NCBI GenBank assembly: GCA_019752575.1
Contig: JAIELW010000007.1
Coordinates: forward strand, 62,001-126,000
Length of the DNA stretch: 64,000 nt
Reading direction: 5' to 3'
Origin: Xanthobacteraceae bacterium
GTDB lineage: Bacteria > Pseudomonadota > Alphaproteobacteria > Rhizobiales > Xanthobacteraceae
In this document: positions 23,740-57,781 of the stretch, piece by piece
How positions within the stretch are numbered: the first letter of the stretch is position 1
Layout of the letters: each line of letters starts with the position of its first letter
The notes under the pieces: model-generated
Databases searched by the model: none
Seen by the model: only the letters and a program-made list of their open reading frames with translations
Told to the model about the DNA's origin: nothing
Position numbers and translations under genes: made by a program

Positions 23740-23742
23740 CTT

Positions 23743-23791
23743 CGTCGTCCCGGCCAAGGGTCGCGTAGCGACACGCGAGCCGGGACCGTTT
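23743..23791 (+). repeat. Left palindrome of the GIY-YIG unit
   Basis: GTCCCGGC (23747-23754) pairs with GCCGGGAC (23779-23786), and TCGCG (23761-23765) pairs with CGCGA (23774-23778) inside it. The repeat starts 4 bp after the GST stop codon and ends 10 bp before the nuclease start. Confidence 0.75.
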
Positions 23792-23801
23792 CGAGGTTTA
23801 T

Positions 23802-24098
23802 TTGAAGAAGTTCTTCGTTTACATCCTCGCTACTCGAAAGGACGGGCCGCTCTACGTCGGCGTCACAAGTAATCTACAAAAACGGATTTTCGAACATAAA
23901 AGCCGAGCCGTTCGTGGCTTCACAAAACGATTCAATATCGATCGTCTGGTCTGGTTTGAGCTGTATGAAACGGCCGAGGCCGCGATCGTTAAAGAAAAAC
24001 AACTAAAACGCTGGAAACGGCAATGGAAGAAAGAGCTGATCGAACACTCCAACCCAGAATGGAGCGATCTCTACGAGACGCTTGATCCGGATTATTAA
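23802..24098 (+). CDS. GIY-YIG nuclease family protein
   Basis: This 98-residue protein consists only of a GIY-YIG domain: FFVYILATRKDGPLYVGVT carries the VYI and YVG signature, LQKRIFEHK the catalytic Arg, and IVKEKQLKRWKR the catalytic Glu. It has no extra DNA-binding domain. This resembles the small UPF0213/YhbQ-like proteins, which are frequent in Hyphomicrobiales genomes. The start is TTG at 23802; no ATG fits the domain. Flanking inverted palindromes and a lower GC content suggest recent mobility. It may nick the palindromic repeats; this is inference. Confidence 0.85.
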   Translation: MKKFFVYILATRKDGPLYVGVTSNLQKRIFEHKSRAVRGFTKRFNIDRLVWFELYETAEAAIVKEKQLKRWKRQWKKELIEHSNPEWSDLYETLDPDY

Positions 24099-24101
24099 TT
24101 G

Positions 24102-24142
24102 GAACGGTCCCGGATAGCGGCTTCGCCGCTTCCGGGACGACG
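24102..24142 (-). repeat. Right palindrome of the GIY-YIG unit
   Basis: GTCCCGGA (24107-24114) pairs with TCCGGGAC (24131-24138), and AGCGGC (24116-24121) with GCCGCT (24125-24130) around a TTC loop. Its ends match those of the left palindrome when read on the opposite strand. It may also stop transcription between the nuclease gene and the convergent gene at 24165. Confidence 0.75.
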
Positions 24143-38858: not shown

Positions 38859-39077
38859 TCACCGTCTGTTGCAGTCGGGATCGGATAGCGGGCAGAGCTT
38901 AATGTCCTTGGTCGCGCTATCGATCGAAGACTTTACGTCGCGCTCGATGCGCTCGTTGGTTTCCTTGGTATTGCGCTGATCGGCGCGCATCTGCGCGCGC
39001 CAAGCTGACAAACCGCCGAGCGCAAGGAGCAGTGCGACGATAGTGACGAGACCGGTTTTCGTTTTCCAGAAATTCAT
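38859..39077 (-). CDS. Small membrane-anchored protein of unknown function
   Basis: This 72-residue protein has one N-terminal helix (MNFWKTKTGLVTIVALLLALGGLSAW), then a charged helical region and a short tail with two Cys (LCPLSDPDC). I do not recognise a family. GGAG lies 8 bases before the ATG. The same 16 bases containing this ribosome site and start occur at the 3' end of cysS, implying that the two genes once overlapped as ATGA before a repeat inserted between them. Confidence 0.65.
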   Translation of the reverse strand: MNFWKTKTGLVTIVALLLALGGLSAWRAQMRADQRNTKETNERIERDVKSSIDSATKDIKLCPLSDPDCNRR

Positions 39078-39089
39078 CGCGCGATCTCC
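39074..39089. repeat. 16-bp direct repeat, copy 1 (flank of palindromic insertion)
   Basis: tcatcgcgcgatctcc here equals 39244-39259 exactly. On the minus strand it reads GGAGATCGCGCGATGA and holds the ribosome site and start codon of the 72-residue gene. Confidence 0.85.
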
Positions 39090-39243
39090 GACTTACCCTC
39101 TCCCCTTGCGGGAGAGGGGTGCCCGCGCGTAGCGCGTCCTACTGCGTCATGCCCGGCCTCGTGCCGGGCATCCACGCTTTGACCACCGATCCGCCATGTA
39201 AGGCGTGGATGGCCGGGACAAGCCCGGCCATGACGCGGGAGTG
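39090..39243. mobile_element. Composite palindromic (REP-like) insertion
   Basis: The 154 bp between the 16-bp direct repeats hold two palindromes. The first is CCCTCTCCC/GGGAGAGGG (39096-39104 and 39110-39118). The second is a pair of 33-nt arms in inverted orientation (39145-39177 starting CGTCATGCCCGGCC, and 39203-39235 ending GCCCGGCCATGACG). Both kinds are familiar as interspersed repeats of Hyphomicrobiales. The direct repeats mark it as an insertion at the cysS/small-gene junction. Confidence 0.75.
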
Positions 39244-39259
39244 TCATCGCGCGATCTCC
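39244..39259. repeat. 16-bp direct repeat, copy 2 (within cysS 3' end)
   Basis: This copy encodes the last residues of CysS (EIAR) and its TGA stop on the minus strand. It is identical to 39074-39089, across a 170-bp period. Confidence 0.85.
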
Positions 39260-40650
39260 CACGTCGTGGTGCCGTCTTTGTTATCCTTGATGACGACGCC
39301 CATGGCTTTCAATTCGTCGCGGATGCGGTCGGACTCGGCAAAATCCTTCGACTTGCGCGCAGCAAGGCGCGCGTCGATCAAACCTTCTACTTTTTCACTA
39401 TCGATAATTTTTGCACCGTCACGGGTGAGCCATTGCTCGTAAGTTAGATTGAGTAGTCCTATCGCTCGCGCAGAGCCGCGCAAAGCTTGCTTCAAATCTA
39501 TCTGATGCTTCCCAGAAGCTGGGCCTTTGATTTCAGAATACAAACTATGAAGGCGCGCAATAGCCTTAGGCGTATTCAAATCATCTTCGAGAGCTTCAAT
39601 GAATTCCGGATCGATCGTGGTCTTATCACCTATATTTTGTGTCGCAGCCTCATACCATCGGCCGAGTGTTTTTTCTGATTCCTCAAGCGCTTTTACAGTC
39701 CAATCAATCGGTTGACGATAATGCGTGCGTAGCATGTTGAAGCGGATCACCTCGCCTGGCCAATCGTTCAGCAACTGCCGAAGCGTAATGAAATTCCCGA
39801 GCGACTTGCTCATCTTCTCGCCTTCGACCTGCAGGAAGCCGTTGTGCATCCAGGTCTTCGCCATGACCGGCGAATGAAACGCGCAGCGGGATTGCGCGAT
39901 TTCGTTCTCGTGATGCGGGAAGACGAGATCGATGCCGCCGCCGTGAATGTCGAAGGTCTCGCCGAGATGCTTCCACGACATCGCGGAGCATTCGATATGC
40001 CAGCCGGGACGGCCCGGCGTTTTAATTCCGGAAGGTGAAGGCCACGCGGGCTCGCCTGGCTTCGACGGCTTCCACAGCACAAAGTCCATCGGATTGCGTT
40101 TATAGGGCGCGACTTCGACGCGCGCGCCGGCTTCCATTTCGTCGAGCGAACGGCGCGCGAGCTTGCCGTAGTCGGACATCTTGCCGACTTCGAACAGCGC
40201 ATGCTCCTGCTCGACATACGCGAAGCCCGCTTTGACGAGCCGGTCGATCAGTTCACGCATCTCGTTGATATGTTCGGTCGCGCGCGGTTCGACGTCGGGG
40301 CGCAGGCAGCCCAGCGCATCGACATCGTCGTGAAACTGCTTTTCTGTTTTCTCGGTGACGAGCCGGATCGCCTCGTTCAGCGGCAGCTTCGGATATTCCT
40401 CCGCCGCGCGCGCGTTGATCTTGTCGTCCACGTCCGTGATGTTGCGGACGTATTTGACGCGGCCCTCACCCGGATAAAGGTGCCGAAGCAGCCGGTAGAG
40501 CACATCGAAGACGATGACAGGCCGCGCGTTACCGATATGCGCGAAGTCGTAAACCGTCGGACCGCAGACATACATACGCACGCGCGCGGGATCGAGAGGC
40601 TGGAAGACCTCTTTCTCCTTGGTCAGCGTGTTGTAGAGCCGAAGCTCCAT
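39244..40650 (-). CDS. cysS: Cysteinyl-tRNA synthetase
   Basis: This 468-residue class I synthetase has the HIGH-type motif FAHIGNARP, zinc ligands Cys (YVCGPTVYD), Cys-His ([13 protein letters not shown]) and the KMSKS motif [11 protein letters not shown]. It charges tRNA-Cys in the cytoplasm. The stretch from 39440 to 39720 (about residues 310-404) has only about 44% GC, unlike the rest of the gene, yet the protein reads through without interruption. Confidence 0.96.
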
Positions 40651-57694: not shown

Positions 57695-57781
57695 CGTCAT
57701 GCCCGGCCTTGTGCCGGGCATCCACGTCTTAGCAGCAGTCCAAATCGGAAAAGGCGTGGATGGCCGGGTCAGCCCGGCCAT
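57695..57781. repeat. REP-like inverted repeat between convergent genes
   Basis: The left arm (57695-57726, CGTCATGCCCGGCC...) and right arm (57754-57781, GCGTGGATGGCCGGG...) are the same repeat family as 39145-39235, in inverted orientation. The right arm lacks its outer ATGACG end. It fills the gap before the convergent DAHP synthase gene, 7 bp from that gene's stop codon. Confidence 0.8.

Follow-up and report, generated by a model that had tools for sequence, protein, structure and literature searches.

A GIY-YIG nuclease gene between inverted CGTC hairpins as a likely autonomous mobile element with ORF-less REP derivatives

The stretch of Xanthobacteraceae DNA analyzed here, 64,000 nucleotides in length and called the window below, carries between a glutathione-S-transferase gene on one side and a convergent SDR gene on the other a unit of 400 bp (23743-24142, + strand), which runs from a CGTC-tagged hairpin through a gene for a GIY-YIG nuclease to a second hairpin in the opposite orientation. 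The left-end palindrome (LE, 23743-23790, + strand) and the right-end palindrome (RE, 24103-24142, - strand) are defined by inverted pairs and by folding. Outermost is an exact inverted pair of 11 nt, CGTCGTCCCGG at 23743-23753 and CCGGGACGACG at 24132-24142, with 378 nt between the arms, and just inside it lies a second pair of 17 nt at 88% identity (23774-23790 and 24103-24119). The left end folds at -15.3 kcal/mol (z -2.6), a value equaled by 2 of 200 shuffles, and the right end at -16.9 kcal/mol (z -5.1), equaled by none of 200. The original prediction, made from the letters of the sequence, had described a 400-bp segment with inverted ends and palindromes facing in opposite directions, and both descriptions hold; the segment is confirmed as one discrete unit. 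The window contains just two exact copies of the 11-mer, namely the two element ends. At up to two mismatches its matches are near chance (59 versus 47.4 expected, with 59 reached in 6 of 100 shuffles), so the evidence lies in the arrangement of the ends and not in the 11-mer itself. Across the whole genome, the pattern CGTCNTCCCGG has 41 matches versus 7 for the reversed pattern, including several plus/minus pairs about 100 bp apart.

The single open reading frame between the hairpins (23802-24098, + strand) begins with TTG and encodes 98 amino acids that match PF01541 at 1.5e-14; a GAGG at 23793-23796 (+ strand), 5 nt upstream of the TTG, is a likely ribosome-binding site. As had been predicted of this lone 98-residue GIY-YIG frame, it is richer in AT than its surroundings, with a GC content of 46.8% against 60.6% for the window, a level as low in only 4 of 1275 segments of the same size, those over the frame itself included. 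Profile, alignment, AlphaFold2 model, and Foldseek all place the protein in the GIY-YIG superfamily, with the domain and its Tyr, Tyr, Arg, His, Glu, and Asn at positions that we take to be the catalytic residues of I-TevI and UvrC. These residues (Tyr7, Tyr18, Arg28, His32, Glu65, and Asn84) are conserved in 80/80 relatives of the same type, termed type 1, Glu65 having been part of the search pattern, and 4 of the 80 genes have an internal stop. The AlphaFold2 model has a pLDDT of 92.6, and UPF0213/YhbQ-type proteins are, among proteins of solved structure, closest to it in both sequence and fold. The best Foldseek match is UPF0213 BH0048 (1zg2; E 9.8e-5), the sole match below 0.001, and UPF0213 proteins are the only solved structures with a sequence relationship at E of 0.01 or less. 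Slx1 follows weakly (E 0.017 to 0.09), and because Slx1 is a nuclease of branched DNA, the model suggests folded DNA as a substrate. The window protein had no match in phage records, zero matches in PADLOC, and none above cut-off in NCBIfam.

Evidence of movement comes from related genomes. Of six relatives fetched, five (G190, G191, G193, G194, and G196) aligned with both flanks, and none of the five has the unit at the syntenic position; in G192 a single flank aligned, and in G195 no match took in both flanks. The check attached to the original prediction, whether orthologous loci lack the whole 400 bp, thus came out in its favor, and an old gene fixed with the same borders in all relatives is not what we find. 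The place of the element is taken by a terminator-like hairpin in G190, G193, and G194 and by about 660 bp of other sequence in G191 and G196, so that the site in the latter two is not clean and the exact target is blurred. In G196, a homologous unit lies one gene away, flanked by the genes for an aldehyde dehydrogenase and a transferase; its homology in BLAST covers window positions 23742-24142, tag to tag, at 71%, and ends there. The junction of the G196 element is occupied in G190 by an ORF-less remnant; in G191 and the window genome it is empty. An element on Sinorhizobium pSymB and elements on Shinella plasmids, whose annotated neighbors differ, are homologous over 2442-2816 (L430) and 2442-2811 (L431), with tags at 2442-2815, and the extra shorter matches in that comparison come from copies of the repeat and from a partial copy on the right. 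In two independent comparisons, DNA homology runs no further than the tags.

Further cases point the same way. A Sinorhizobium plasmid with flanks 95-96% identical to another has 80 bp where the other has 775, and in Azospirillum lipoferum the unit sits between sufB and sufC. Among 11 Sphingobium plasmids, the element is present in seven (one frameshifted) and replaced by a solo hairpin in two and by other sequence in two, and because of what the empty ones hold, these plasmids provide presence and absence and no clean junction. Within the genus, type-1 nucleases number zero in G190, G191, G193, and G194, one in G192 (partial) and in G195, two in G196, and ten in the window genome, a patchiness unlike the weak UPF0213-like matches found in 7/8 genus genomes. 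The same unit at different sites, together with sites that lack it in relatives, is what is expected of a transposable element. The elements in G000 and G196, compared by sequence context, sit at different sites. No target-site duplication rose above background, 44 element flanks being no better than mismatched flanks; IS200/IS605-type elements are not known to produce any either. Beyond the tags lies a stretch poor in G and rich in pyrimidines, a weak hint of site preference because the flank sets overlap. Separately, the solo tag-to-tag hairpin seen in Sphingobium L201 and L202, where relatives hold the full element, is probably a product of internal deletion.

The window genome itself (a 3.0-Mb assembly in 34 contigs, 99.99% complete) has 14 matches to PF01541, comprising ten type-1 proteins of about 95 amino acids and four other GIY-YIG proteins, which by eye are UvrC, a UPF0213-like protein (L005), and two more. 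Inspected by eye, 10/10 type-1 genes and 0/4 of the others lie between inverted tagged palindromes, so that the resident UPF0213-like copy differs from type 1 in having no such flanks. Inverted-repeat scores of the flanks range from 26 to 61 for the ten and from 12 to 18 for the four; a strict hairpin finder recovers two-sided hairpins at 6/10 type-1 genes and a hairpin on at least one side at 9/10. Two of the ten genes are broken (L012 and L013). Enzymes that are alike have palindromes that are alike (Mantel r 0.69, 2/20000 permutations, n = 9 elements). No recent burst of autonomous copies is visible, because the enzyme copies have diverged to 41-81% identity.

Relatives turned up in many phyla when a profile was built from nine of these proteins; at least 558 matched, of which the best 80 were taken. 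Inverted repeats in the flanks scored 30 or more at 60 of 78 type-1 loci (L078 and L089, with short flanks, being omitted) and at 16 of 2799 control positions with matching geometry; 18/78 fall below the threshold, so flanking is not universal. In a class sample, made up of the best match of 29 among 87 genomes with a match, 16/29 loci have the flanking repeat and 13/29 are below threshold. Strict two-sided tagged hairpins occur at 45/80 loci, 14/29 in the class sample, and 1/1594 control positions, and at least one CGTC hairpin at 74/80, 26/29, and 123/1594, respectively. Nucleases of this type are thus flanked far more often than chance, and the outcome that would have told against the idea, with such frames found mostly apart from palindromes, is the reverse of what the 60/78 indicate. 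CGTC-type ends, such as GTCATTCCCGCG...CGGGAATCCAG, extend beyond the proteobacteria to Chloroflexi, Omnitrophota, deltaproteobacterial, and candidate-phylum records, among which short metagenome-assembled contigs are perhaps misassigned.

Low-scoring GIY-YIG genes were taken as a negative control and rejected as such, being flanked in 9/16 cases versus 16/29 for the query type (Fisher p 1.0). This set proved to contain a second clade with a different palindrome, CATCCTGAG...TCGAAGGATG. These type-2 proteins share the motif RRPV...ERxIKGWSRAKKEAL (e.g., L180, L182, L183, L187, L188, and L192), and at 15 of the 18 type-2 loci, a set that overlaps the low-scoring control, a CGTC hairpin was found in 0/15, the clade's own palindrome on both sides in 8/15, and on at least one side in 13/15. 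Conversely, with all 80 broad type-1 loci used, the type-2 palindrome lies on both sides of type-1 loci in 0/80, 0/29, and 0/10 cases and on one side in 3/80, 2/29, and 1/10 (broad set, class sample, and own genome). The unflanked low-scoring genes include other GIY-YIG types (L190, L191, and L194) and also type-2 genes (L181, L184, L185, and L189), some of them palindrome bearing on one side. In the window genome, the type-2 profile has weak-E matches only, to type-1 and other GIY-YIG proteins; type-2-like palindromes occur there in the flank of L010, outside the tags.

On the enzyme tree, built by a quick method from an alignment of about 95 columns, palindrome class requires 13 changes, whereas none of 300 shuffles needs fewer than 25 (67 of 89 rows, those that are unlabeled or classed as "other" being left out), and within Pseudomonadota 10 versus at least 20 (42 rows). 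Host phylum requires 21 changes, with a shuffle mean of 25.7 and a lowest value of 24 (81 rows), which is a slight signal. Of the two traits, palindrome class is by far the closer fit to the enzyme tree.

The hairpins have the form of the CGTC REP superfamily, with a CGTC-like tag outside a stem of 8-9 bp, a short loop, a CC-type tail, and dimers that are predominantly head to head; loops exceed the published 4-5 nt in the window element and in the ATTCCGG class. Tag, stem-loop, tail, head-to-head dimers, and abundance in alphaproteobacteria are shared with the CGTC REPs as described in the defining paper (Di Nocera, De Gregorio and Rocco 2013, PMC3733652), and what differs here is the GIY-YIG gene between the ends and a commonest heterodimer that carries both ends of one nuclease element family. 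In the window genome, the CGTC REP pattern, which also matches some coding sequence by chance, has 200 matches and the reversed pattern 0. Among 92 typed of the 100 listed of these matches there are 26 head-to-head pairs, 2 tail-to-tail, and 1 head-to-tail. All 26 of the head-to-head pairs (83-118 bp) are heterodimers, and random pairing would give 7.3 homodimers. The halves of 19/26 are the left and right ends of the nuclease elements L006/L013, and the short dimer L031 has the left and right ends of the window element, with the same LE type. The fit is partial, as six T1/T2 dimers resemble L012 in just one of their halves. Nor does the autonomous form always have unlike ends, since the nuclease elements L002, L003, L004, L009, and L010 have two like ends.

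Two such dimers lie in the window. One is an ORF-less heterodimer of 91 bp (39145-39235), whose halves match both ends of L006/L013 and which is absent from four relatives that span both sides (L269, L270, L274, and L275). The other (57695-57781) has lost its right tag where the right end runs into a terminator-like T-tract, and in 4/4 aligned relatives, judged by eye, the site has a terminator-like hairpin and no dimer. The suggestion that these two repeats are ORF-less relatives of the 400-bp unit was correct in that both are real CGTC dimers, and needs amending in that they belong to another subfamily, with the ends of L006/L013. Around the first, at 39050-39330, the dimer and another hairpin (CTCTCCCCTTGCGGGAGAGGGG) are bracketed by two copies of the neighboring gene's final 16 nt, a single case. 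The right half of the second merges with the terminator of the relatives (CCCGGCCATTTTT), as if insertion had used the terminator hairpin.

Repeat load and enzyme go together across the class. Of 190 genomes, the 54 with a type-1 match at E below 1e-25 have a median of 4.8 pattern matches per Mb versus 0.94 in the other 136 (p 6e-12), and the difference persists with our own genome left out and only genomes of at least 2 Mb retained (p 4e-8). Enzyme without repeats and repeats without enzyme both occur, which counts against the nuclease as the mover of the repeats: five class genomes are repeat rich with no strong type-1 match (G081, G093, G105, G144, and G171), and eight have a strong match and 0-1 pattern matches.

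Taken together, the tag-to-tag unit, its presence and absence and its different sites, the pairing of enzyme clade with palindrome class, and the unlike ends joined in the commonest dimers make it likely that two CGTC hairpins and a GIY-YIG nuclease form an autonomous mobile element, that the nuclease mobilizes it, and that the ORF-less dimers are its nonautonomous derivatives. That the nuclease nicks or moves palindromes is what we infer from sequence, and each step of binding, cutting, and joining is put forward as part of a proposed route. The nuclease would recognize the hairpins of the ends, either extruded as cruciforms or single-stranded at the replication fork, and would cut hydrolytically at the hairpin feet beside the CGTC tag, much as its branch-selective relative Slx1 acts on branched DNA; host repair or replication would then join the freed or copied unit elsewhere. 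ORF-less CGTC REP dimers would be MITE-like forms that kept both ends and lost the interior, and those with both ends could be moved in trans and outlive the enzyme. Insertions may favor gene ends, pyrimidine-rich sites, and terminators. A wider reading, to which we incline by a modest measure, is that GIY-YIG nucleases are pan-bacterial stand-alone transposition enzymes of at least two clades, each with its own hairpins (the CGTC REPs and CATCCTGAG...TCGAAGGATG), and that they gave rise to much of the load of interspersed palindromic repeats in alphaproteobacteria and in other phyla, the Neisseria dRS3 repeats among them.

An improbable but not negligible alternative makes the nuclease gene a passenger: a RAYT or another transposase would move the CGTC dimers, which would at times have a small gene between them. 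An enzyme-blind search of viral contigs found four enzyme-sized repeat pairs, two of which enclose other, unrelated small ORFs, and dimers occur in genomes that have no type-1 enzyme, such as G193 (90% complete), with many dimer matches. A passenger would not be expected, however, to track palindrome class along its own tree, nor would this alternative predict two GIY-YIG clades, each with its own palindrome. A search for the Y1 type of transposase (PF01797) matched in 0/8 genus genomes, so that these genomes show no RAYT by which the repeats could at present be moved. In the viral contigs concerned (L310:11720-12039 and L316:357-682), the CGTC repeats stand head to head around the other small ORFs, which are perhaps cargo.

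We consider it less probable still that the nuclease gene spreads by homing, in which the enzyme would cut REP dimers already in place and the gene would be copied into the cut, while the dimers move by other means. GIY-YIG enzymes are known as homing endonucleases, and free-standing ones spread by homing; the ORF-less remnant in G190 at the junction that holds a full element in G196 fits that behavior as well. Sites that lack the unit show no dimer, and this disfavors homing into existing dimers, the window element's site holding a terminator-like hairpin in G193, G194, and G190 and the G196 junction being bare in G191 and the window genome; the ends and the enzyme also vary together. An ordinary resident gene with transcription terminators as its flanking hairpins, an idea prompted by the terminator-like hairpins of relatives at two insertion sites, is scarcely credible, given the absence of the unit from its site in five relatives compared, the recurrence of tags and stems across phyla, and the purine-rich rather than T-rich DNA outward of the hairpins.

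The preferred reading, a mobile element moved by its own nuclease, has partial parallels among known systems. GTAG REPs and REPINs with their RAYTs also have tagged, inverted palindrome pairs, a lone flanked enzyme gene, and short enzyme-less derivatives, but they combine an HUH Y1 transposase with GTAG, where the element here combines a GIY-YIG nuclease with CGTC. The REP/RAYT analogy of the original prediction is apt as a way of working and fails as membership, because the enzyme is unrelated: the ORF is PF01541, no Y1 gene lies between the repeats, the tag is CGTC rather than of GTAG type, and the eight genus genomes have no Y1 match. Free-standing homing endonucleases of the seg/I-TevI type are mobile GIY-YIG genes too, but the element differs from these in that it is not bound to one homing site or intron, is bounded by palindromes, and has ORF-less derivatives at many sites.

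Within the literature covered, which leaves most subscription papers and preprints outside its scope, the matches listed include no report linking GIY-YIG proteins with palindromes, REP, REPIN, MITE, RAYT, or dRS3, no such link for CGTC repeats, and none for type-2 palindrome strings; in the searchable text of PMC6006769 and PMC12306157, CGTC is mentioned solely in the reference lists. The defining paper describes CGTC repeats as apparently having no dedicated transposase and leaves the heterodimer preference of most CGTC families unexplained, homodimers predominating in CGTC-1 (PMC3733652). Our reading supplies a specific candidate for the mover of these repeats, which occur in several phyla and whose mover that paper left open, gives a reason for the joining of unlike halves in many CGTC dimers, and also takes in another palindrome family and the nuclease clade that goes with it. 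If true, it describes a type of transposon whose sole transposase has a chemistry not previously known in that role; were the enzyme to move hairpins, the hydrolytic chemistry of GIY-YIG would join that of HUH, DDE, and recombinases as a means of moving small DNA, in an enzyme of fewer than 100 residues.

The dRS3 elements of Neisseria are CGTC-1 repeats, according to PMC3733652. An intact type-1 gene lies inside a dRS3 array of N. gonorrhoeae (L196:1105-2750), in a 2.17-Mb record that is filed as a plasmid and is probably the chromosome. The type-1 gene is common to that array and to the element described here, with large clusters of repeats in Neisseria versus single dimers in the window genome.
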